From an uncultured Akkermansia sp. (lineage in GTDB: Bacteria; Verrucomicrobiota; Verrucomicrobiia; Verrucomicrobiales; Akkermansiaceae), in the NCBI GenBank assembly GCA_900548895.1, contig URLZ01000007.1:1-64000 (forward strand): a DNA stretch of 64,000 nucleotides. Reading direction: 5' to 3'. Both the position numbers and the translations under genes were made by a program. Under the pieces are notes generated by a model. That model saw only the letters and a list, made by a program, of their open reading frames with translations, was not told where the DNA came from and did not search any database. Of the stretch, positions 1 to 44,920 are shown piece after piece. How positions within the stretch are numbered: position 1 is the first letter of the stretch; every line of letters begins with the position of its first letter.

Positions 1-40
1 CCCACCCCCACACACCTCACCCCACACCTGCGTGACGCAC

Positions 41-1570: not shown

Positions 1571-3688
1571 ATGAGGCTTCTCCCCCTGCTGCCGGCTCTC
1601 ACCCTGCTCCTCCCCGCCTGCGATCGCAGCGAGGAGTCGACAAAACCCGCCTACGAGGGGCAGAGTGCCCACTGGAATCAGCAGGCCGTGCCGATCTCCC
1701 TTCAGTGCGCCGCCTGCCACGCCAAGGAGTTTGAGGACTGGGCGGGCAGCGATCACGCCTGGGCCTGGCGCCAGGTTGATCCCGCGCTGGATTCGGAGCC
1801 TTTTCACGGCCAGAGTTACACGGCCCACGGCTCGAAGCTGAGTTTCCGCACGGCGCGCGACGGAGGCCTCGTGATTCAGGACGGCGAATCCGGCAAGAGC
1901 TTCGACGTACACTCCGTGCTGGGGCGCACGCCGCTGGTGCAGTATCTCGTGCGGGGGGAGCGCGGGGCTCTGCACACTCCCAGTGCCGCGTGGGACACGC
2001 AGAAGCTGGAGTGGTTCGATATGTTCGCGGATGATGAGCGTCTGTCGCGCGAGGGCGCGGCGAGCCGCCGAGCGGGCGACTGGGGCCACTGGCTGGGGCG
2101 CGGCATGAACTGGAATTCGCAGTGCGCGTGGTGCCACATGACGGGCTTTCACAAAAATTACGATGAGGCGACGGACGCCTACGCCTCCTCTTGGACGGAG
2201 CCGGGCGTCACCTGCATTCAGTGCCACAAGTTGGCCGCGCACCCCGACGCGAGCGACGGCTGCATGGTGGCGAAGGGCGACCGCAAGCTCACGCCCCGGC
2301 AGATTCACGACAACTGCGCCACCTGCCACGCCCGCCGCGAGGAGCTCGACGATGCGTTCTGCGTCGGCGACAGCTTCGATGAGCACTTTCGCCTCGAGCT
2401 GCCGCTCGTGCGCGGCATTTTCTGGCCCAACGGCATGCAGCGCGATGAGGACTACTGCGAGACGGGGCTGCGCCTGAGCCGCATGGGGCGCACGGGCGTC
2501 ACCTGCCTCGACTGCCATGACCCGCACACGGCGCAGCTGCGCCTGCCGCAGGAGGACAACTCGCTCTGCCTGCGCTGCCACGGCACGGGCACGGAGGTCA
2601 ACGGCGTGGCAGCCCCCGTCATCGACATGGCGACGCACAGCCCCTGCCCCGCCGGTTCTGCCGGCGCCACCTGCGTGGAGTGCCACATGCCCAAGAGCCC
2701 CTACATGGCGCGCGACCCGCGCCGCGACCACTCCTTCAACTCACCGGATCCGCAGCTGAGCCTCGAGCTGGGCATTCCCAACGCCTGCACCATGTGCCAC
2801 CGCGACCGCGATGACGCTTGGGCGGCGGCGGCCGTCGCCAAAACCTACGGCCCGAACCCCAAGATGGCTGCTCAGCGCGATCGCACGCGGGCCGTCTGGG
2901 CCGCGCAGGAGGGCCGGGGCAACGCCGCCGACCTGCTGCGCGCCTATCGGGCGGAGGAGGTGCCGGCCTGGCGCGCCACCCTGCTGGAGCTGCTGGCCCG
3001 CGAGGCGGAGGCGAATCAGCCCGATTCTCCGCTGTACAAGGACATCCTCGCCGAGGCGCGCCGCGCCGCGCAGGATGAAAACGCGATGGTGCGCGCGGCG
3101 GCCGCCCGACTGCTCGGCGCTGAGGCCATCGGCATGATTCACGACCCGAGCCGCCTCGTGCGCCGCGCGGCCGCCTGGCCCCTCGTCGACAGCCTCGTGC
3201 GGATGCCCGATGCCGCCGACGTCGTCCGCGAGCTGGAGGCGACCGCGAAGCATCAGGGCGATCAGCCCACCGGGGCCATGCAGCTGGCCGTGCTCGCCGA
3301 TGCCCGCGGCAAGCTGGACGAAGCCGAGCACCAGTATCAGCGGGCCATCAGCCTCGACCCGCACAGCACCGTGCCGCGCATCGACTATGCGGTCTTTCTG
3401 GATCGCGAGGGGAGGCCCGTGGAGGCGCTCACGCAGATGCTCGAATGCGCCAAGCGCCACCCGCAGGATGCCGAGGTGCAGTACCGCTTGGCGCTCATCC
3501 TCGCCGAGCTGAGGCACTATGAGCCCGCCCTGCTCGCCCTTGACAAGGCGATTCGCATCGAGCCCGGCTTCCTGCAGGCGCGTGCGAACCGCGCCGAGCT
3601 GCTGCGCTTCCTCGGCCGCGAATCGGAGGCCCGCGAGGAGATGCAGCGCATCGAAGAGCTGCGGCAAGCGCCGACAACCCCGGAGTGA
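1571..3688 (+). CDS. octaheme c-type cytochrome lipoprotein with C-terminal TPR repeats
   Basis: Periplasmic electron-transfer protein. The N-terminus is a lipoprotein signal (MRLLPLLPALTLLLPAC), so it is probably membrane-tethered. Eight CxxCH haem-binding motifs start near residues 46, 185, 215, 249, 312, 333, 368 and 406 (CAACH, CAWCH, CIQCH, CATCH, CLDCH, CLRCH, CVECH, CTMCH). The region after about residue 450 resembles HEAT helices, and residues of about 560-690 look like TPRs (EAEHQYQRAISLDP, PALLALDKAIRIEP). This haem-plus-TPR layout is known from large multihaem cytochromes of Planctomycetes and Verrucomicrobia. The electron donor and acceptor cannot be told from sequence; NrfA-like nitrite reduction is not shown. 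The start is fixed by the lipoprotein signal and the promoter spacing. Confidence 0.88.
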   Translation: MRLLPLLPALTLLLPACDRSEESTKPAYEGQSAHWNQQAVPISLQCAACHAKEFEDWAGSDHAWAWRQVDPALDSEPFHGQSYTAHGSKLSFRTARDGGLVIQDGESGKSFDVHSVLGRTPLVQYLVRGERGALHTPSAAWDTQKLEWFDMFADDERLSREGAASRRAGDWGHWLGRGMNWNSQCAWCHMTGFHKNYDEATDAYASSWTEPGVTCIQCHKLAAHPDASDGCMVAKGDRKLTPRQIHDNCATCHARREELDDAFCVGDSFDEHFRLELPLVRGIFWPNGMQRDEDYCETGLRLSRMGRTGVTCLDCHDPHTAQLRLPQEDNSLCLRCHGTGTEVNGVAAPVIDMATHSPCPAGSAGATCVECHMPKSPYMARDPRRDHSFNSPDPQLSLELGIPNACTMCHRDRDDAWAAAAVAKTYGPNPKMAAQRDRTRAVWAAQEGRGNAADLLRAYRAEEVPAWRATLLELLAREAEANQPDSPLYKDILAEARRAAQDENAMVRAAAARLLGAEAIGMIHDPSRLVRRAAAWPLVDSLVRMPDAADVVRELEATAKHQGDQPTGAMQLAVLADARGKLDEAEHQYQRAISLDPHSTVPRIDYAVFLDREGRPVEALTQMLECAKRHPQDAEVQYRLALILAELRHYEPALLALDKAIRIEPGFLQARANRAELLRFLGRESEAREEMQRIEELRQAPTTPE

Positions 3689-35961: not shown

Positions 35962-36654
35962 ATGAAAAGAACTCTCATCACCTCGGCCCTCATCGCCGCC
36001 CTGGCCGCCCCGGCCGTCATGGCGCAAGACACCGCCGAGCAAACAAGTGACTACACCATCGGGCTTAAATCCGGTTACGCGTCAGGTGACGGCAACTACA
36101 ACGGCTGGACGATGGCGCTGACCGACAGCTTCCTCGACGCCACCGAGACCAACCTCGGCACTCTGAGCAGCGTCGTGCTCGACAGCGTCACCATCAATAA
36201 TCGCACCAGTGGCGATCAGACGTCCGGAAGCGTCTACTTGGCCGTCTACCTGTATTCCGAAGACTACACAACCGGCACCTTCGTTGGCGTCTCCGACAAT
36301 GTCGCCACCAACGGCAATGTGAACGGCTCGAACACCTTCACCTTCACTGATGTCACGCTCGTCCCGAACGAGCAGTACCAGTATCTCTTCGTGACGAGCA
36401 ATGATACAACAACGCTCGCGACCTTCGAAGGGTACAAAAGCGTTGCCCATCAGTTCGGGCTTAACGTTGCAAACATCACCGGGGGCACGCTTCCTACCGG
36501 CGATGGAACGTACAAAGGCAACGGTCTCGATACTTGGGAGAGCTCTTACATGCCCAACGTCAGCGTCGCCGTGAGCGTCACCCCCGAGCCGACGACGGCC
36601 ACGTTGAGCCTGCTGGCTCTGGCCGGCCTCTGCGCTCGTCGCCGCCGCAAGTAA
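35962..36654 (+). CDS. PEP-CTERM-type secreted protein, paralogous set copy 1
   Basis: Protein of 230 residues with a signal peptide (MKRTLITSALIAALAAPAVMAQD). The beta-rich middle is unrecognised (TIGLKSGYASGDGNYNGWTMALTDSFLD). The C-terminus is a sorting-signal-like tail: PEPTT, about ten hydrophobic residues, then LCARRRRK. Such tails are cut and anchored by exosortase-type enzymes in Gram-negatives, or simply act as membrane anchors in Verrucomicrobia; no exosortase is in the window. The tail is almost identical to those of the next two genes, although the middles are not alike. Confidence 0.85.
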   Translation: MKRTLITSALIAALAAPAVMAQDTAEQTSDYTIGLKSGYASGDGNYNGWTMALTDSFLDATETNLGTLSSVVLDSVTINNRTSGDQTSGSVYLAVYLYSEDYTTGTFVGVSDNVATNGNVNGSNTFTFTDVTLVPNEQYQYLFVTSNDTTTLATFEGYKSVAHQFGLNVANITGGTLPTGDGTYKGNGLDTWESSYMPNVSVAVSVTPEPTTATLSLLALAGLCARRRRK

Positions 36655-37063: not shown

Positions 37064-37738
37064 ATGAAAAAGACACTATTCCTGATCGGCGCCCTGTTCG
37101 TGGGAAGCGCCGCCTTTGCAGCTGAAGACACAACCGTGGGCTTCAGCTTTGGAACCACCAACGACCTCAACTCCCTTAGGCTCAGCGCGACCGATTCCGT
37201 GCTCTCCATTCAGAACGCCGCGATCGACGTCACCGGCACCAAGACTCTTCAGGGTAATAACAACGCCGCTGCCCCGAGTGGCACTTATATTGCCCCGGAT
37301 GTTAATATCGGGACAGGCGGCACTTGGAAGATAACTTTTGACCTCACCAACAATTCGGGTCAAGATGTTATTATCACCGGTCTCAACCTGAATGTTCTCA
37401 CTTTCAACGCTTCCGCTCTTCCACAAAATGACACGACGGGGCGAGACGGCTCCTTCAGCGTCAGCTTGGACACCACGAGTTTCTCCGGTGGCGAGGATGT
37501 CACTCTGGCGAGTCTGTATCAGACCACGACTGTCAACACAACCGGCTCGTACACTCTCGGAGCCAACAGCACCGTCACAGTCACCATTGACGCAGCTAAG
37601 GCGCCCAATGAGCCCGACGGCTTCTATGTCGCTCTGCAGGGCGGCTCCATCAGCTATCAGGTCACGCCCGAGCCGACGACGGCCACGCTGAGCCTGCTGG
37701 CTCTCGCCGGCCTCTGCGCCCGTCGCCGCCGCAAGTAA
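37064..37738 (+). CDS. PEP-CTERM-type secreted protein, copy 2
   Basis: Protein of 224 residues: signal peptide (MKKTLFLIGALFVGSAAFAAE), then a beta-sandwich-like middle (TWKITFDLTNNSGQDVIITGLNLNV; YTLGANSTVTVTIDAAK) and the same PEPTT...LCARRRRK tail as its neighbours. The role is unknown; the fold suggests an adhesive or carbohydrate-binding surface protein. It has its own promoter and terminator, so the three tandem genes are separate transcription units. The middle is less GC-rich than the surrounding housekeeping genes. Confidence 0.84.
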   Translation: MKKTLFLIGALFVGSAAFAAEDTTVGFSFGTTNDLNSLRLSATDSVLSIQNAAIDVTGTKTLQGNNNAAAPSGTYIAPDVNIGTGGTWKITFDLTNNSGQDVIITGLNLNVLTFNASALPQNDTTGRDGSFSVSLDTTSFSGGEDVTLASLYQTTTVNTTGSYTLGANSTVTVTIDAAKAPNEPDGFYVALQGGSISYQVTPEPTTATLSLLALAGLCARRRRK

Positions 37739-37989: not shown

Positions 37990-38066
37990 CGCCTCAAGCA
38001 GTGCGGTGGGGAGGCTATCTCATCGAAGAATTCCCTCCGTCGCGAAACAACTCTCAACGAACAACA

Positions 38067-38765
38067 ATGAAAAAGACACTTATTACTCTGTCGCTCATGG
38101 CGGCGACATCCGCAGCAATGGGGGACGTCATTGATTTGACGGGCAGCGCCTTCCAAGAAGCTGCATCTGCCACTAACGCAAATGGAATCACAGCTTCTGA
38201 TGTGTTCGGCTACAATTCAGGCGTATGGCACGTATCCATCCCGAGCGCCAGCGCTAGTGGTTTTGCTGGTGTCACCCTGTCCGATGAGGGCCAAGGTTCG
38301 ATTTTCCTCCAAGGCGGTGCGGCTATCAACGGAACTGCAGGTGTCTTTGCTGCAGTGAAAATTGATGCGACTCAGATCGGCAACACGACGCCTGTTTCCC
38401 TGAATTTTGATTGCGTCAAAAGTTCGGGATGGAGCGGAACGACATCGGATACTTTTGAGGTCACCGTTCAGTTCATTGCCTACAACGAGAGTGGTGAATC
38501 CATCGGCGAGACTAAGACTTGGACACAAACCGTAGATTGCACTACTTCAACTGGCACCCTTGCTTCAGGCGTTAAAATGGCACTCGATCTCACGGGAGAG
38601 TACGACTCCTATGGAATTATCTTGTCGGCCTCAAGAGACGGTGGTAAAGGCGGAGCTGTCGTGCAGCTTGAGAACCTGACGCTGGTGACGACCCCCGAGC
38701 CGACGACGGCCACGCTGAGCCTGCTGGCTCTTGCCGGTCTCTGCGCTCGTCGCCGCCGCAAGTAA
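38067..38765 (+). CDS. PEP-CTERM-type secreted protein, copy 3
   Basis: Protein of 232 residues with a signal peptide (MKKTLITLSLMAATSAAMGD). The middle resembles a jelly-roll/carbohydrate-binding-like domain (VTLSDEGQGSIFLQGGAAINGTAG; VSLNFDCVKSSGWSGTTSDTFEVTVQFIAYNESGE). The tail PEPTT...LCARRRRK is shared. Start 38067 (MKKTL) is preferred over an upstream in-frame ATG, which lacks a signal sequence. The 3' flank after the tail (stop, short spacer, GGGGCAGG hairpin) is also shared with gene 2, pointing to duplication or gene conversion of the 3' ends. Confidence 0.85.
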   Translation: MKKTLITLSLMAATSAAMGDVIDLTGSAFQEAASATNANGITASDVFGYNSGVWHVSIPSASASGFAGVTLSDEGQGSIFLQGGAAINGTAGVFAAVKIDATQIGNTTPVSLNFDCVKSSGWSGTTSDTFEVTVQFIAYNESGESIGETKTWTQTVDCTTSTGTLASGVKMALDLTGEYDSYGIILSASRDGGKGGAVVQLENLTLVTTPEPTTATLSLLALAGLCARRRRK

Positions 38766-38804
38766 GCGAGTCTTCCACGAGAGATTTTCTCATCCCGCAT
38801 CAAG

Positions 38805-38837
38805 AGCGGGGCAGGTTTCGGCCTGCCCCGCTTTTTT
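38805..38837 (+). terminator. terminator after PEP-CTERM gene 3
   Basis: An 11-base-pair stem (AGCGGGGCAGG / CCTGCCCCGCT), loop TTTCGG, then a T6 tract. Confidence 0.9.
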
Positions 38838-38964
38838 GTGTCGAGAAGGCGCGAGACGACCAGCGAACTCTGGAGACCTCGCTCCCTCCCTGCCCCGCCG
38901 CGGGGGAGCTCCGGGGGCGGCAGCACAAGCCCTATCTGCGTCGACGGGATTGCAACGCACCCGG

Positions 38965-39004
38965 ATAAAATGGCCCCCGCCGTCGCGGAGCGAGGGCGGG
39001 GGCC
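38965..39004 (-). terminator. terminator of the broken autotransporter copy
   Basis: Stem GGCCCCCGCC / GGCGGGGGCC (38972-39004), followed on the minus strand by ATTTTATCC. Homologous to the terminator at 40509-40548. Confidence 0.75.
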
Positions 39005-39078
39005 GAGGGGTGGGCAGGACTGAGTCCGTCGGGCACCGAGGCTGCGCAGGGCGGGACGCGGCTCTCGCCGGCGGGGCC

Positions 39079-39372
39079 TCAGAAGTTGATGCGCCAACCG
39101 ACGGTGGCGTTGAGGTTGCTGGAGTCGGCGCGCAGTTCGACGGAGCCATCGACGAAGAGCTTGCCGCTGCTCCGGCCGAGCGGCACGCTGAGGCCGACGC
39201 CGGCTTCGACGCCGCAGACGCCGTATTCAGCCGAGCGGATGCGGCCGCCGGAGCCGGGCAGCATGGCGAGGCTGCTGCTCAGGCTGCTGTGCCGATCGCC
39301 GAGGTCGAATTTGGCCAGCAGGCGGCCTTCGAGCAGGGAGCTGCGGTTATAGATGTTTTCGCCGATGAGGGT
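39079..39372 (-). pseudogene. autotransporter fragment (last ~97 residues of the beta-barrel)
   Basis: The frame reads TLIGENIYNRSSLLEGRLLAKFDLGD and continues to NATVGWRINF, matching the C-terminal end of the 1,406-residue autotransporter at 40604-44824. The open frame extends to 39396, but its first eight residues are unrelated to that protein. Signal peptide, passenger and most of the barrel are missing, so it cannot work alone. Either a second autotransporter gene lost its 5' part to the neighbouring DUF3800 module, or the 3' end was duplicated when that module arrived. Confidence 0.8.
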
Positions 39373-39418
39373 TTTTGGGGCAATTCGCTTGGACATTGGT
39401 CCGCAGTCAAAATTTATC

Positions 39419-39446
39419 TTGACATTCGCCGAGACAGCTATATAAT
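39419..39446 (+). promoter_or_regulatory. consensus promoter of the non-coding RNA
   Basis: Perfect TTGACA at 39419-39424, 16 bases, perfect TATAAT at 39441-39446. It is the only promoter in the window I found with both hexamers perfect, and no protein gene follows on that strand. Confidence 0.8.
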
Positions 39447-39452
39447 GGGTGC

Positions 39453-39589
39453 GACGCTGGAGGTTTGTCCGGCAAGGGCAAGCGTCTGGGGAAGCCCAAG
39501 GCCAACGTCTTTTTTTGCGTCTCGTGTCGAGGTCTCACCAAGAGGCGAGAGCCTGTGCCGCAGAAACTCGGGGGCTGCGTTTTTCTTTT
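39453..39589 (+). ncRNA. structured small RNA convergent to the DUF3800 gene
   Basis: Predicted to start near 39453, seven bases after the -10 box. The 5' section can close on itself: GACGCTGG (39453-39460) pairs with CCAACGTC (39502-39509) with one mismatch, encloses two small hairpins (one is TGGG-GAAG-CCCA) and is followed by T7 (39510-39516). A bulged hairpin follows at 39530-39554 (AGGTCTC with GAGAGCCT), then a terminator hairpin with a T-tract at 39559-39589. So a 64-base form and a 137-base form are possible. No reading frame of note lies inside. Structured RNAs near DUF3800 genes have been described by comparative genomics (the DUF3800-numbered motifs); whether this is one is untested. 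Confidence 0.6.
39559..39589 (+). terminator. terminator of the non-coding RNA
   Basis: Stem CGCAG / CTGCG (39559-39579), then TTTTTCTTTT (39580-39589). The T-tract reaches the stop codon of the convergent DUF3800 gene. There is no T-tract on the other strand. Confidence 0.7.
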
Positions 39590-40356
39590 CAATGTGCGCT
39601 GAGCTTCTGAGGGTCAATCCAGCGCAGTGTGCTCATGGCTCGCCCGTAGTTGTCTTTCCACGTGTAGAAGAGGCGGTGGAGGTGCGCGTACAGCTCCTTG
39701 ATGCCGGGTTCTCCCGCTGCATACAGGCCTATGATTGTGGTGACAATGTCGGCCAGTTGCAAGCCTATGTTATTTGCTTGAGAGATGGCAAAGAGAGGGA
39801 TTTCAAGAAGTGAGCTTCGCATGTTGTTGCCGGTCTTGCTGCGAACGAGGTAGTTGGTCACGGCCCGCGCATTCCGTTCATTCGTTCCCTCATCTTGACT
39901 GTCAAAGACGATGATGGCTTTCTGGTTCGGATGTTCACGCTTCATGTACATATTGATGCGTTCGCAAAGGCTTTTGAATGTGCCGGCCAGGGCTGTGTCT
40001 TTATCGCTGGTGAATTTGTAGGCTTCTTGATCAAAGCAAACGCAGCCGAAAACGGGGAGTTTGTTTCTTTCCAGAATGCGAACCAGGGTTTCGACAAAAT
40101 TCAGATTTTTAGTTTCTTCCTCAGGATGCTGTTTGAGGCGACGGAAGGTTCTGGGTGACAGTAGTTTCTTTCCTTTCAGCTCACTTTTTTCCGCATAGTT
40201 CTTGCCGAGAGCATTGAGCTTTGCCTTGAATACGGCGGTTGCGATTTTTGTGTAGATTTCTATGGGTATGCCAACGCCGCAAAGCGCTCCGAAATCTACT
40301 TCTCCGCCTTTTTTGGTCTGAGCCTTACGGAATGTTTCGTCTATAAAGATGAGCAT
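39589..40356 (-). CDS. DUF3800 domain protein
   Basis: Protein of 255 residues. The DUF3800 pattern is clear: an acidic pair in the first strand (MLIFIDETF, D6/E7), a conserved Asp after a central strand (KAIIVFDSQDEGTNERN) and a late NIGLQLADIVTTIIGLYA motif. This suggests an RNase H-like fold with an acidic active site; activity is not established for the family. Such genes are common in mobile and defence-associated DNA. Base composition is clearly lower in GC than all neighbours, which indicates transfer. It has its own promoter and probably a leaderless mRNA, and it runs head-on into the non-coding RNA. Confidence 0.85.
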   Translation of the reverse strand: MLIFIDETFRKAQTKKGGEVDFGALCGVGIPIEIYTKIATAVFKAKLNALGKNYAEKSELKGKKLLSPRTFRRLKQHPEEETKNLNFVETLVRILERNKLPVFGCVCFDQEAYKFTSDKDTALAGTFKSLCERINMYMKREHPNQKAIIVFDSQDEGTNERNARAVTNYLVRSKTGNNMRSSLLEIPLFAISQANNIGLQLADIVTTIIGLYAAGEPGIKELYAHLHRLFYTWKDNYGRAMSTLRWIDPQKLSAH

Positions 40357-40361
40357 ATCGA

Positions 40362-40390
40362 ATTCTATAACGGGGAGAATATGGTGTCAA
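40362..40390 (-). promoter_or_regulatory. leaderless promoter of the DUF3800 gene
   Basis: On the minus strand TTGACA (complement of 40385-40390), 17 bases, TAGAAT (complement of 40362-40367), then five bases to ATG 40356. Confidence 0.72.
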
Positions 40391-40459
40391 CCTTTCTTTT
40401 CGTAAATCACAGTTGCTTTTTTTCACGTGGTTTTCACTGCGTGGAAGCTCGGCGCGGCG

Positions 40460-40915
40460 GGGCCGGCGCATGCCTTATCCGCATCCTCGTGATTGCAACG
40501 TGGTCTGATAAAAAAGGTCCCCGCCGTCGCGGAGCGAGGGCGGGGGCCGTGGGATGGGCCGCGGGATGAACGCAGAGCCTCCGTGCGGCTCTCGGCGGCG
40601 GGCTCAGAAGTTGATGCGCCAGCCAACGGTTGCGTTGAGGTTGTGGTAGTCGGCGCGCAGTTCGACGGAGCCGTCGATGAAGAGGTTGCCGCTGTTCTGG
40701 CCAAGCGGGACGCTGAGGCCGACGCCGGCTTCAAATCCGCAGACGCTGAGTTCGGCGGAGTGGATGTTGCCGGCGCTGCCGGGCAGCAGGGCGAGGCCGG
40801 CGGCGGTGCTGCTGCGGCGGTCGCCGACGTCAAAGGTGGCCAGCAGGCGCCCTTCGAGCAGTGAGCTGCGGTTGTAGACGTTTTCGCCGATGAGGGTCTG
40901 GGCGCGCAGGCCGAC
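40460..40915. repeat. right copy of the duplicated autotransporter 3' end
   Basis: Partner of the block at 38920-39372, in direct orientation; together they flank the DUF3800/RNA module of about 1.1 kb. This copy is continuous with the intact autotransporter gene. Confidence 0.72.
40509..40548 (-). terminator. terminator of the autotransporter gene
   Basis: Stem GGTCCCCGCC / GGCGGGGGCC (40516-40548, one G-T pair), followed on the minus strand by T6. Confidence 0.85.
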
Positions 40916-43900
40916 GCCGAGGGTGAGGGTGTTGATGCTCTGGTCGCCGAAGCGCAGGGCGAGGTCGCTGCCGCTCTCGCTGTAGGCGTCGAGGGTGCTG
41001 TGGGTATAGCTGATGTTGAAGATGGGCTGCAGGCAGGTGCTGCCTTCTTCGTTCATCGGGATGGTGTAGCCGACTTCATACATGAGGCCGAGGCCGTAGC
41101 CGTCCGTGTCTCCGCTCATGGTGTAGGTTTTGCCGCCGATGGTGACGTGGCGGGTGAGGGAGGTGTCGGCGATGCCGAAGGTGGCGATCAGGCTGTGCGT
41201 CCAGGCGCTGGAGCTGTAGCGGGCGAAGGCGGTGAGGTACCAGGTGTCGAGGTCGCCGTCGGCGCTGTCGCTGCTGCGGGAGCTGTAGTCGCCGTACATG
41301 GCGGTGAAGGCGAGGCCGCAGGTGAGGCTGGTGTTGATGTCGACGTCGGCTCCGACGGTGCCGCCCCAGCTGTTGTATTCGTAGCCGCTGTTGGTGCCGT
41401 CTGCATCAAGGGTGCGGAAGTTGGCTTCGGCGTTGATCCAGGCGTTGAAGTAGGGCATGTCGGGGTTGATGTATTGGTCGCTCACACCCATGTTGCTCAT
41501 GCGGTTGCGGATGCCGTTGAGCTGGCGGCGCAGGTCGCCGGAGAGGGCGATGCCCATGCCGGTGGCGGAGGCGCCGGAGATGGCGGCGAGGTTGCGATCA
41601 AGGCCGCTGAGGTCTCCGTCGGCGAGTTGCTCGCGCAGGCTGGTGATGACGGCGGCGAGCTCGCCGTCGGGGTCATTGACGGCGGGGTTGAGGGCGGCTT
41701 CTGCTTGGTCGATGAGGGTGCCGCCGGTGATGCCGTTATGGCTGGTGGCGCTCCGGCTCAGGGGGTTGGCCTGGCTGCTGTCGCCGACGAGGACGAGCTG
41801 GCCTTTGTTGTTCCACACGAGGCTGTAGCCGCTATCGGGGGCTTTGAGGGTGATGGTGCCGGTGTCGGTGCTCTCGATGCTGCCGTTGACGCGGAGCACG
41901 ATGCTGCTGGTGCCGGGCTGGAGGGTGAGGCCGGTGGCGTCGAGCACGTAGTTGCTGCCGCTGAGGTTGCCGCTGATGCTCAGGGCGCTGTCGCCGACGC
42001 CGCCGAGGACGAGGGTGGCGCCGTTGCCGAGGGTGAGATCTCCGCCGATGCTCTGGGCGCCGACGATTTGCAGGGTGCAGTCGGTGGCGACGCTGACGTT
42101 GCCGGTGCCGAGGGCGCCGTTGCTCTGGCTGATGAGGGTGCCGCCGGTGATGCTGACGCCGCCGCTGTAGTTGCCGCCTTGGGTGAGGGTGAGGGTGCCG
42201 CTGCCTTGCTTGCTGAGGGCGATGTTGCCGCTCAGGGTACCCGCGAGCTTGGTGTCACCGCTGTTGGTGACGGCGAGGGTGAGGGTGCCGCTGCCGCTGT
42301 TGCTGATGGCGCCGCTGTAGCCGGTGGTGTCACCGCTGAGCTTGAGTTGCAGGTTGTGGGTGCCGGTGTCGACGCTCAGGGCGCCGCTGCCGCTGAGGCT
42401 GCCGCTCAGGCTCAGCTCGGTGTCGCTGCCGAGGTTGCCGAGGGTCCAGCCGCTGCCGCTCAGGACGAGGTCTGAGGCAATGCTGCTGGTCGCGATGGAG
42501 GAGCTGAGACCGTTGAGGTCGATGGTGGAGTTTGCGTTGCCGAATTGGCTGAGGTCAAGGTTCCCGGCGCTGCCGCTCAGTTCGATGGTGCCGCTCCAGG
42601 TGTCGAGCTTGAGGTTGCTGCCGCCGTCGGTGCCGTTCAGTTCGAGGGCGACGGTGCCGGAGCCGCTGAGGGTGGCGGCGAGGCTGTTGTCATACCCGCT
42701 GAGCTTGAGGGTGGCGCCGCTGTCGATGTTGTAGCGGCGGTCCTGCGCGTAGGCGGTGCTGAGGGTGCCGCCGGTGAGGTGGAGGCCGCCCTTGAAGCCG
42801 TTGCCGAGGGTGAGGCTGTTGTCGCTGCCTTCGCCGGCGCTGACGGCGAGGGTGGTGCCGTCAGCGGCGCTCAGTTGGCTGAAGTCGGCGCTGCCGCTGA
42901 GGGCAGCGGTGAGGCTGAGGGTGCCTTCGTTGAGGCTGAAGGCTTGGCTGAGGATGTTCTGGCTGACGGCGAGTTCACCGGCTCCTTCTTTGCTGAGGGT
43001 GGCGCCGCTGCCGAGGCTGATGTTGTTGGCGGTGAGGCTGGCTTTCTGGCCTGCTTCCACGGTGAGGGCGACCTCGGCGTTGTCAAGCAGGGTGAGGGTG
43101 CCGACGACGAGCTCTCCTTGCAGGATGGGGTTGCTCTGCCCGGCGCTGAATTTGACGTTGGTGCCGTTTTCAAAGGTGGCGCTGCCGGCGGCACCGCCGG
43201 AGCTGTTGGCGAAGTTGCTGCTGGCGCCATCGCTCCAGATGTTGTTGCCTCCGCTGACCCAGTAGACGCCGAGGTCTCGGGAGACGGTGACTTGCAGGCT
43301 GTTGTTGACGATGCTGCCGGTGCCGATGAGGTCTTGCCCGAGGATGAAGTTGAGGTTGCCGAGGGTGCTGTCATCAAGGCCGGTGATGGTGGTGCCTTCT
43401 GCCCAGCTGATGAGGGTGTAGGTGTTGCCTTCAGTGGCGAAACTCTGCACGTTGATGTTGGTCAGACCTCCGATGCTGAGGCTCGAGCCGCTGCTGAGGC
43501 TCAGGGCTTTTTCTCCGCTCAGGGTGAGGGTGCTGCCTTCGGCGAAGCTCAGGCTACCCTTATCTGCCACGACGAGGCTGCCGCCGGTGGCGAGGCTGAG
43601 GCTGCCGCCGTTTTCAACGCTGAGGGTTTTGGCGTAGCTGTCGATGGTGGTGTCGATGGTGAGGGTGCCGCCTTCTTTGACGGTGCTGCTACCGAAGTAC
43701 TGGATTTCGGCGTTTTTTGTGGCGAGTCTGCCGTAGACGTTGAGGTTGGAACCCTCGGAGAACGAAGATCCTTTGGTGTTGCGGATAATGCCGGTGGCGC
43801 CGAAGCTGCCGCCGTGGTAGTTCACGGTGTAGCTGCCGGTGTGGCTGCCGCTTGTGGCGAGGGAGCCGATGATGTCTCCGTTGTAGGTGCCGCCGTTGAG

Positions 43901-44824
43901 GTTGATGGTGACGTTGCCGGTGAGGCTGCCATGGCCGTTGCCGGCGATGCCGTTGTAGGTGCCGCTGTTGATGTTGAGGGTGATGTCGCCTTTGACGCTG
44001 CCCAGCGCCCCGGTGACGGTGGCAGGGCCGCCGACGACGTAGCCTTCAAAGCTGGGGCCGTTTGTGCCTTCTTTGCCGAGGTTGAAGGTGATGTTGCCGT
44101 TGATCGCGGGGCCTTTGAGGCCGGAGGTGAGGGAGTTCGTTCCGCCGTCGCAGAGGCCGTAGGTTCCGGTGAGGATGTCGGCTTGGATGTTGCCGTTGAC
44201 GGTGATGGCTTTTTCATAGTTGGATTGCCCGGTGAGGCTGAGGCCGCCGAACTGGCTGCCTTCATTGCCGTTGATGCTCACGCCGATGTTGCCGTAGATG
44301 GTGACGTTGCCGGCTTTTTGCCCGGAGTAGCCCAGGAGGCCGAGTTTCTCGCCGAAGGTGCTGATGCTGGTGTCTCCGCTGATGTTGAGGTTCAGATCGA
44401 GGGGGGCGTCTGCCGTGCCGAGGGTGCCGCTTACCGGGCCATCGCTGTTGCGGGTGAAGCTGATGTTGCCGTAGCTGCCGCCGGTGATGGTGATGGTGGT
44501 GGCAGCAGTGGGGAGCTTGCCGATTTCCGGTCCGGCGGTGATGTTGAGGCCCGTGGCGCTAACCTCAGTGGTGGAGCCTCCCTCGTAGCTGTATTGGTAG
44601 CCGCCACTCTCTGCGGTGCCGATGGTGATGCTGTTACTGTTGGCGTAGAGGGTGTTGGAGGCTTGGTCGTAATAGGGGTTGCCGTCTTCTCCTGCGGCGA
44701 GTGCGCTGCTGCTCAGCGCAAGGGCGCCGAGGGTGGCGGTGGCGAGGGTACCGAGGGCAGGGAGGCTGAGGCAGAGGGCGGCCAGAAGGGCGCGCCGCAG
44801 GGGGAGGGGAAGGCAGATTTTCAT
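40604..44824 (-). CDS. autotransporter (type Va-like) with beta-helical passenger
   Basis: Outer-membrane protein of 1,406 residues. The start at 44824 gives a long signal peptide (MKICLPLPLRRALLAALCLS to ALAAGEDG). The passenger, to about residue 1080, is Gly/Ser/Thr/Leu-rich with repeating strand patterns (SGTLTLAVTNSGDTKLAGTL, NGGTYNGDI-type units), typical of a beta-helix. The last 280 residues form the autotransporter barrel: NPDMPYFNAWINAEANFRTLDADG, GGTVGADVDINTSLTCGLAF, and a C-terminal aromatic end, GWRINF. Akkermansia relatives carry many such genes. A promoter lies on the minus strand (TTGACA, 17 bases, TACCCT). A degraded relative of its 3' end lies at 39079-39372. Confidence 0.92.
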   Translation of the reverse strand: MKICLPLPLRRALLAALCLSLPALGTLATATLGALALSSSALAAGEDGNPYYDQASNTLYANSNSITIGTAESGGYQYSYEGGSTTEVSATGLNITAGPEIGKLPTAATTITITGGSYGNISFTRNSDGPVSGTLGTADAPLDLNLNISGDTSISTFGEKLGLLGYSGQKAGNVTIYGNIGVSINGNEGSQFGGLSLTGQSNYEKAITVNGNIQADILTGTYGLCDGGTNSLTSGLKGPAINGNITFNLGKEGTNGPSFEGYVVGGPATVTGALGSVKGDITLNINSGTYNGIAGNGHGSLTGNVTINLNGGTYNGDIIGSLATSGSHTGSYTVNYHGGSFGATGIIRNTKGSSFSEGSNLNVYGRLATKNAEIQYFGSSTVKEGGTLTIDTTIDSYAKTLSVENGGSLSLATGGSLVVADKGSLSFAEGSTLTLSGEKALSLSSGSSLSIGGLTNINVQSFATEGNTYTLISWAEGTTITGLDDSTLGNLNFILGQDLIGTGSIVNNSLQVTVSRDLGVYWVSGGNNIWSDGASSNFANSSGGAAGSATFENGTNVKFSAGQSNPILQGELVVGTLTLLDNAEVALTVEAGQKASLTANNISLGSGATLSKEGAGELAVSQNILSQAFSLNEGTLSLTAALSGSADFSQLSAADGTTLAVSAGEGSDNSLTLGNGFKGGLHLTGGTLSTAYAQDRRYNIDSGATLKLSGYDNSLAATLSGSGTVALELNGTDGGSNLKLDTWSGTIELSGSAGNLDLSQFGNANSTIDLNGLSSSIATSSIASDLVLSGSGWTLGNLGSDTELSLSGSLSGSGALSVDTGTHNLQLKLSGDTTGYSGAISNSGSGTLTLAVTNSGDTKLAGTLSGNIALSKQGSGTLTLTQGGNYSGGVSITGGTLISQSNGALGTGNVSVATDCTLQIVGAQSIGGDLTLGNGATLVLGGVGDSALSISGNLSGSNYVLDATGLTLQPGTSSIVLRVNGSIESTDTGTITLKAPDSGYSLVWNNKGQLVLVGDSSQANPLSRSATSHNGITGGTLIDQAEAALNPAVNDPDGELAAVITSLREQLADGDLSGLDRNLAAISGASATGMGIALSGDLRRQLNGIRNRMSNMGVSDQYINPDMPYFNAWINAEANFRTLDADGTNSGYEYNSWGGTVGADVDINTSLTCGLAFTAMYGDYSSRSSDSADGDLDTWYLTAFARYSSSAWTHSLIATFGIADTSLTRHVTIGGKTYTMSGDTDGYGLGLMYEVGYTIPMNEEGSTCLQPIFNISYTHSTLDAYSESGSDLALRFGDQSINTLTLGVGLRAQTLIGENVYNRSSLLEGRLLATFDVGDRRSSTAAGLALLPGSAGNIHSAELSVCGFEAGVGLSVPLGQNSGNLFIDGSVELRADYHNLNATVGWRINF

Positions 44825-44891
44825 GATGTTAGGCGGGGGTGGGGATCCGGTGGAATGCGCCGTCTCTCGTCTCGGCAGCATCACGATGAGC

Positions 44892-44920
44892 AGGGTAATG
44901 TATGGCAGAGGGCATGTCAA
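44892..44920 (-). promoter_or_regulatory. autotransporter promoter
   Basis: TTGACA (complement of 44915-44920), 17 bases, TACCCT (complement of 44892-44897); leader about 60 bases. Confidence 0.55.

Follow-up and report, generated by a model that had tools for sequence, protein, structure and literature searches.

A DUF3800 gene and a convergent structured RNA form a conserved pair in Akkermansia and in distant relatives: a possible RNA-controlled defence module

The window analysed in this work, a stretch of 64,000 nucleotides from an uncultured Akkermansia sp. (positions 1 to 64,000 of contig URLZ01000007.1, assembly GCA_900548895.1), carries a gene of the DUF3800 family on its minus strand and, facing it on the plus strand, the putative transcription unit of a small structured RNA (Table 1). 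A preliminary description of this DNA, made from the letters alone, had proposed that the two form a protein-RNA module, with the RNA as a substrate, guide or antitoxin-like partner of the protein. The observation itself is confirmed here and its interpretation is supported in part, since the pairing of gene and RNA holds in related genomes, while an RNA unit of about 137 bases, as described, and a match to the DUF3800 motifs of Rfam, suggested as a check, do not.

As described, the gene has a low GC content (0.492, versus 0.645 for the window) and a promoter of its own, and its 255-residue product passes the Pfam gathering criterion for PF12686 (DUF3800; E=1.2e-11, 45.9 bits, cutoff 21). The -10 element of this promoter ends 5 nucleotides before the ATG in the window (5-7 nucleotides in the five Akkermansia-type loci, all of which have 9-11 of 12 consensus matches) and, given this short distance, the mRNA is probably leaderless. 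Structure prediction gave a confident globular model (predicted local distance difference test, pLDDT, 85.2), for which fold comparison indicates an RNase HII-like RNase H fold, and the protein is thus predicted, by its modelled fold, to be an RNase HII-like nuclease. In an alignment of 59 sequences, D152 and D203 are invariant, and D6 and E7 are conserved in at least 90%. Besides the fold, the protein has in common with RNase HII and RNase H2 neighbouring Asp and Glu residues on its first strand, which we take to be the RNase HII motif; it differs from them in having no sequence match to RNase HII, given that a Pfam search with E up to 0.01 returned DUF3800 only (and no RNase HII profile) and that no PDB sequence matched with E < 0.2. 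The literature searched, in the portions available, gave no function for DUF3800.

On the plus strand, the perfect TTGACA-N16-TATAAT promoter of the preliminary description is present, and a scan of 38700-40900 reported two promoter-like sites only, this one and that of the DUF3800 gene (shuffled sequences average 0.3). Transcription from it is predicted to start at about 39453 and to run towards the DUF3800 gene, through a three-way junction made of three helices (P1, P2 and P3). The fold described as closed by GACGCTGG/CCAACGTC before a T7 tract does exist, but its energy is weak (the fold from 39453 is slightly better than shuffles, z about -1.7), and one closing pair, the fifth of P1, is C-A in the window and U-G in four close relatives. 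Similarly, the sequence does have the second hairpin and a T-tract adjoining the stop codon of DUF3800, but the folding of segment 39524-39588 does not surpass that of shuffles (z +0.8), and neither this hairpin nor the 137-base unit is found in any of the four close Akkermansia relatives, for which reason we discarded a functional unit of 137 bases. What is conserved is a 64-base RNA, and the case for its being more than chance is made, at the sequence level, by conservation in relatives and not by folding energy. A simple terminator scan reported neither of the two RNA terminators, nor any other plus-strand terminator. The Rfam scan of the whole window returned two tRNAs only, and on 39360-39640, with E up to 10, it returned two unrelated families, both far under the gathering score, and no DUF3800 family.

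Table 1. Features of the DUF3800-RNA locus in the window.
Feature	Position	Strand	Basis or remark
Autotransporter 3'-end remnant	39064-39363	minus	82% identical to 40589-40888; RNA side of module
RNA promoter TTGACA-16-TATAAT	39419-39446	plus	promoter scan; perfect -35/-10 pair
Conserved 64-base RNA: three-way junction and T7 tract	39453-39516	plus	conservation in relatives
Closing stem P1, 5' arm	39453-39460	plus	pairs with 39502-39509
Hairpin P2, 8 pairs	39463-39483	plus	loop GGCAA in window, UGCCC in relatives
Hairpin P3, 4 pairs	39487-39498	plus	tetraloop GAAG in window, GAAA in relatives
T7 tract, presumed terminator of conserved RNA	39510-39516	plus	sequence
Window-specific spacer, second hairpin and T-tract up to DUF3800 stop	39517-39588	plus	not in four close relatives
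DUF3800 gene, 255 aa	39589-40356	minus	open reading frame and Pfam profile, alignment of 59, model, fold matches
DUF3800 promoter TTGACA-17-TAGAAT	40390-40362	minus	promoter scan
3' end of full-length autotransporter gene (40604-44920 as listed)	40589-40888	minus	DUF3800 side of module

A scan with one genome per species gave four close DUF3800 relatives with 67-70% identity (G001-G004), all of them genome bins of Akkermansia, whose gut hosts are water buffalo, goat and cattle. In 260 genomes from the family of one of them (G002), taken to be Akkermansiaceae, DUF3800 protein matches occurred in seven, namely the four close ones, G167 at 45% and two weak ones. The presence of the RNA beside close DUF3800 homologues had been set beforehand as a check, and an opposite-strand RNA of the same kind adjoins the gene in all four, with its first T-tract extending into the DUF3800 stop codon. 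The core of this RNA is identical to that of the window at 50-51 of 57 bases, while the DUF3800 DNA of the same relatives is 63-66% identical, with 34-39% at third codon positions. Among the four bins 55-57 of the 57 bases are identical and there is no variable segment, which speaks against a reprogrammable guide. The RNA promoter is also kept, with 10-12 of 12 consensus matches in the five Akkermansia-type loci. An RNA model of this group (R1) matched in ten of the 260 genomes: the four strong matches are the genomes with the close proteins, and the six weak ones (E 0.0026-0.087) were counted as chance, none of the four that were aligned having the whole of P2.

A wider search, in overlapping samples that took in 384 genomes from the class, 387 from the phylum and smaller sets near the matches, found distant DUF3800 loci in G409, G735, G928 and G939, in addition to that of G167. 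In all five, an RNA built to the same plan lies beside DUF3800 in the same place and on the same strand, with 8 pairs in P1, the loop CUU(U/A)CUUGU on P2, 4 pairs in P3 and a T-rich end, and a structured RNA hence adjoins DUF3800 in ten of ten loci of the subfamily (the window, four close and five distant). In the alignment of the five distant RNAs 97.8% of the cells pair and 7 of 18 pairs are changed on both sides, a result matched by none of 500 shuffles, which with five sequences is a strong control and not a probability; one of five covariation measures (the number of further pair types) was no better than shuffles (307/500). Taking the two groups together, 21 cells hold G-U pairs that are consistent with the RNA strand and one cell holds a pair consistent with the opposite strand, many of them shared through kinship. 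Ten of 35 distant homologous proteins (that of G167 included) end in a tail that translates the complement of the RNA, in one of two frames (five proteins each), which indicates that the nucleic acid, and not a protein tail, is the conserved thing. The RNA model of the distant group (R2) was run on 154 genomes and matched in 24 of them at E up to 0.01. Three of these matches belong to DUF3800 loci (E of 8e-25 or lower) and one is an orphan RNA beside hsdR in G918 (48.8 bits, E 1.6e-12), a genome in which, taken by its handle as in the searched sample, there was no DUF3800 match at E 1e-30. The remaining 20 (best E 7e-5) were counted as chance or terminators; four of them were seen aligned, and the fullest (L103) is located within a coding region.

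We treat the RNA of the window and those of the distant group as sisters sharing one plan, with homology likely. DUF3800 matches from other subfamilies were left out of the pair counts: R1 found no RNA on eight such loci, and R2, on seven, matched one only, and weakly, at 14.6 bits: the DUF3800-VI RNA in locus L074. In another DUF3800 subfamily (L080, L082, L083, L072) another convergent RNA was observed at the gene's 3' end, with a T-rich end and the core GTTCGG...GATATGG...CCCAGCC, which has no Rfam match at E 0.05; its four sequences show compensatory changes in 2 of 16 predicted pairs, and 7 pairs are broken in one sequence.

The surroundings of the pair are of defence or conflict type in seven of the nine relative genomes. 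In G409, G928 and G939 the order is hsdM, hsdS, an accessory gene (Fic, bSEFIR or KAP NTPase), DUF3800, RNA and hsdR; in G167 the pair lies behind a type III res gene, with a mod fragment further out read by eye; in G001 it follows a gene that encodes AEP-TOTE, helicase and PLD domains, and in G003 and G004 it follows the helicase-PLD part of a TOTE-type gene, the remainder of which was not seen on their contigs. The two others have the pair behind mutS (G735) or directly after ppdK, with an apparent remnant of the ppdK end (G002). In G409 the interval from the Fic gene to DUF3800 also has two abiF-RNA matches (L069:2315-2351 and 2369-2405, minus strand), which score 35.1 and 38.5 bits against a gathering score of 37 and lie upstream of DUF3800, on its strand. 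No DUF3800 relative was found in the viral contigs, phages or plasmids searched, nor was the Akkermansia-type RNA pattern in viral contigs. The distant-group P2 hairpin pattern has an exact, antisense match in one phage gene on two contigs (L091:2691-2711, L092:2416-2436), a gene taken by eye for the terminase; we read this link as probably chance.

We tentatively read the pair as a two-gene RNA-protein defence module, in which the RNA would bind and inhibit the RNase HII-like nuclease, and put the chance of this slightly below even. Because the relatives keep gene and RNA side by side, mostly in antiviral gene clusters, the RNA is probably the dedicated partner of the DUF3800 protein, and perhaps its off-switch. 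A constant RNA without variable segment, the pairing throughout the subfamily, a single orphan and the slot in the restriction operons all fit an RNA restraining a nuclease, as RCd22 does with AbiF (see below). The nuclease would be expressed from the promoter close to the ATG, through a probably leaderless mRNA, and the separate facing promoter would give the 64-base three-way-junction RNA, ending at the 3' end of the DUF3800 gene in relatives and 72 bases before it in the window. By analogy with type III toxin-antitoxin systems and AbiF, the RNA would most likely fold, bind the nuclease in trans and hold it inactive; upon takeover of the cell by a phage, this short RNA would be lost and the nuclease freed.

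Several observations weigh against this reading. The RNA models of the two groups recognise each other only in part: R1 put four of the six RNAs from the distant group at the top of its ranking (12.5-17.7 bits) and left two within noise (6.1-6.3), and R2 gave the four Akkermansia relatives 14.7-18.3 bits, with 15.8-17.8 for ordinary terminators in the same loci, and the window RNA 7.4 bits, below an unrelated terminator at 11.2. The covarying pairs that the preliminary description called for are provided by the five distant loci, but not by the window's own group, where the RNA is too conserved (none of 20 pairs). Additionally, the distant group and G918 have weak RNA promoters (7-9 of 12, equalled by 20-255 of 500 shuffles), no defence gene was recognised beside the pair in the window, G002 or G735, and the asymmetry expected of an antitoxin, an RNA surviving without its protein, is based on a single orphan RNA.

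The main rival, which we consider rather unlikely, has an RNase H-fold nuclease that would hit phage RNA or RNA-DNA hybrids and would need the RNA, either as a cofactor or as a guide to a fixed target. DUF3800 proteins occur with a Cas12a2 branch and some VI-F and V-A2 loci, a company that speaks for this possibility, and one paper suggests interference or CRISPR RNA (crRNA)-processing roles for them, as far as the available parts of these sources go (PMC10910872, PMC12669027). The predicted fold and the nearly invariant P2 loop of the distant group would suit it as well, whereas the near-identity of the RNA over the four Akkermansia bins, without any variable segment, argues for something else; an orphan RNA would be odd for a guide without effector, and the P2 pattern has a single exact match, in the putative terminase, with about 0.2 expected by chance (rough estimate). 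Less likely still are the two readings that give the RNA no protein partner. Acting in cis, it would pair with the 3' end of the DUF3800 mRNA, or collide with its transcription, and so lower expression. This improbable course draws on the convergent RNA that abuts or overlaps the gene in relatives, on a likeness to convergent type I toxin-antitoxin pairs and on the lack of a reported DUF3800-strand terminator between gene and RNA in the window (from a scan that also misses the RNA terminators). Complementarity alone, however, needs neither a conserved three-way junction nor 88% identity amid scrambled synonymous sites, and in the window the 72-base extra spacer parts RNA from gene. In type I systems the toxin is a small hydrophobic peptide repressed by antisense RNA, which the DUF3800 protein, with its length and confident globular model, is not. 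A plain terminator or 3' untranslated region structure, more doubtful again, would explain a stem and T-tract at the gene end and the similar R2 scores of ordinary terminators, but not the near-consensus promoter in all five Akkermansia-type loci, the G-U pairs that fit the opposite strand, or three helices with conserved loops and junctions.

The flanks of the pair are repeated. In the window the autotransporter gene lies on one side and a repeat of its 3' end on the other; G001-G004 have the 3' end of ppdK copied beyond the RNA, for which reason these Akkermansia copies resemble an insertion at that gene end, and the window is suggestive of the same plan, integration at gene ends. Intact ppdK is on the same contig in G001 and G002 (30 identical bases in G001) and not on the contig in G003 and G004. 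No recombinase was recognised among the open reading frames of at least 90 aa in the 4.1 kb G001 interval. That the pair is itself a mobile unit, with its RNase H-fold protein and its RNA together guiding insertion at the 3' ends of genes, would draw on these repeats and on the unseen recombinase, but it is very improbable, as distant members sit within restriction operons, there are two sites only, and a lost or trans-acting site-specific integrase, or tandem-gene recombination, accounts for the repeats. In several Akkermansia genomes (L059, L064, L065) variable large genes, some defence-like by eye, lie downstream of ppdK, whose 3' end may be an integration hotspot. Beside the module in the window are three successive small secreted-type proteins (35962-36654, 37064-37738, 38001-38765), all ending in TPEPTTATLSLLALAGLCARRRRK, a PEP-CTERM-like tail.

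The wider proposal, possible in our view though held with a little less confidence than the module itself, is a new class of RNA-controlled defence module, in which an RNase HII-like nuclease would be held or licensed by a convergent three-way-junction RNA, in the hsdS-hsdR slot and behind TOTE-type genes, other DUF3800 subfamilies each having their own convergent RNA. If true, DUF3800 would be a wide family of RNase H nucleases tethered to RNAs. The locus offers a 64-base RNA with clear ends and an RNase HII-like predicted partner with candidate catalytic residues and, with the consistent co-occurrence and the relatives inside restriction operons, the question of why DUF3800 genes have RNAs becomes testable at the bench.

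Rfam catalogues several DUF3800-associated candidate RNAs, including DUF3800-VI (RF02915) and DUF3800-VII (RF02967), for which no function was found in the literature searched. These are likewise small structured RNAs that accompany a DUF3800 gene. The DUF3800-VII RNA of L073 (2176-2090, minus) runs towards its DUF3800 gene and adjoins the stop codon (the gene ends at 2088), the same geometry as here, and DUF3800-VI is a 52-base three-way junction akin in plan, although in L074 it lies on the strand of the gene and near its start, unlike the window RNA. Since no Rfam DUF3800 family matches even at E up to 10, the window RNA is a new DUF3800-associated RNA beside these catalogued but unexplained ones. 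Among systems of known function, the hsdS-hsdR slot of a type I restriction operon, occupied by the pair in distant relatives, can also hold the toxin-antitoxin pair DarTG2, which differs in joining a protein toxin to a protein antitoxin, according to the portion of the source available (PMC12255303). Type III toxin-antitoxin systems (ToxIN and others) have the direct inhibition of a protein by RNA that may operate here but, in the part of the source at hand, rely on tandem repeats and on an RNA co-transcribed with the gene (PMC12373285); in 38000-42000 no tandem-repeat antitoxin RNA upstream on the toxin strand was found, the single RNA being convergent. The same partial source provides what resembles the proposed pair, AbiF and RCd22: there the RNA has two abiF motifs upstream of the gene (here one convergent copy) and the protein is linked to Abi_2 and Cas13 (here a predicted RNase H-fold protein), and a toxic defence-type protein has a dedicated small structured RNA, RCd22, which binds AbiF and neutralises its toxicity (PMC12373285).
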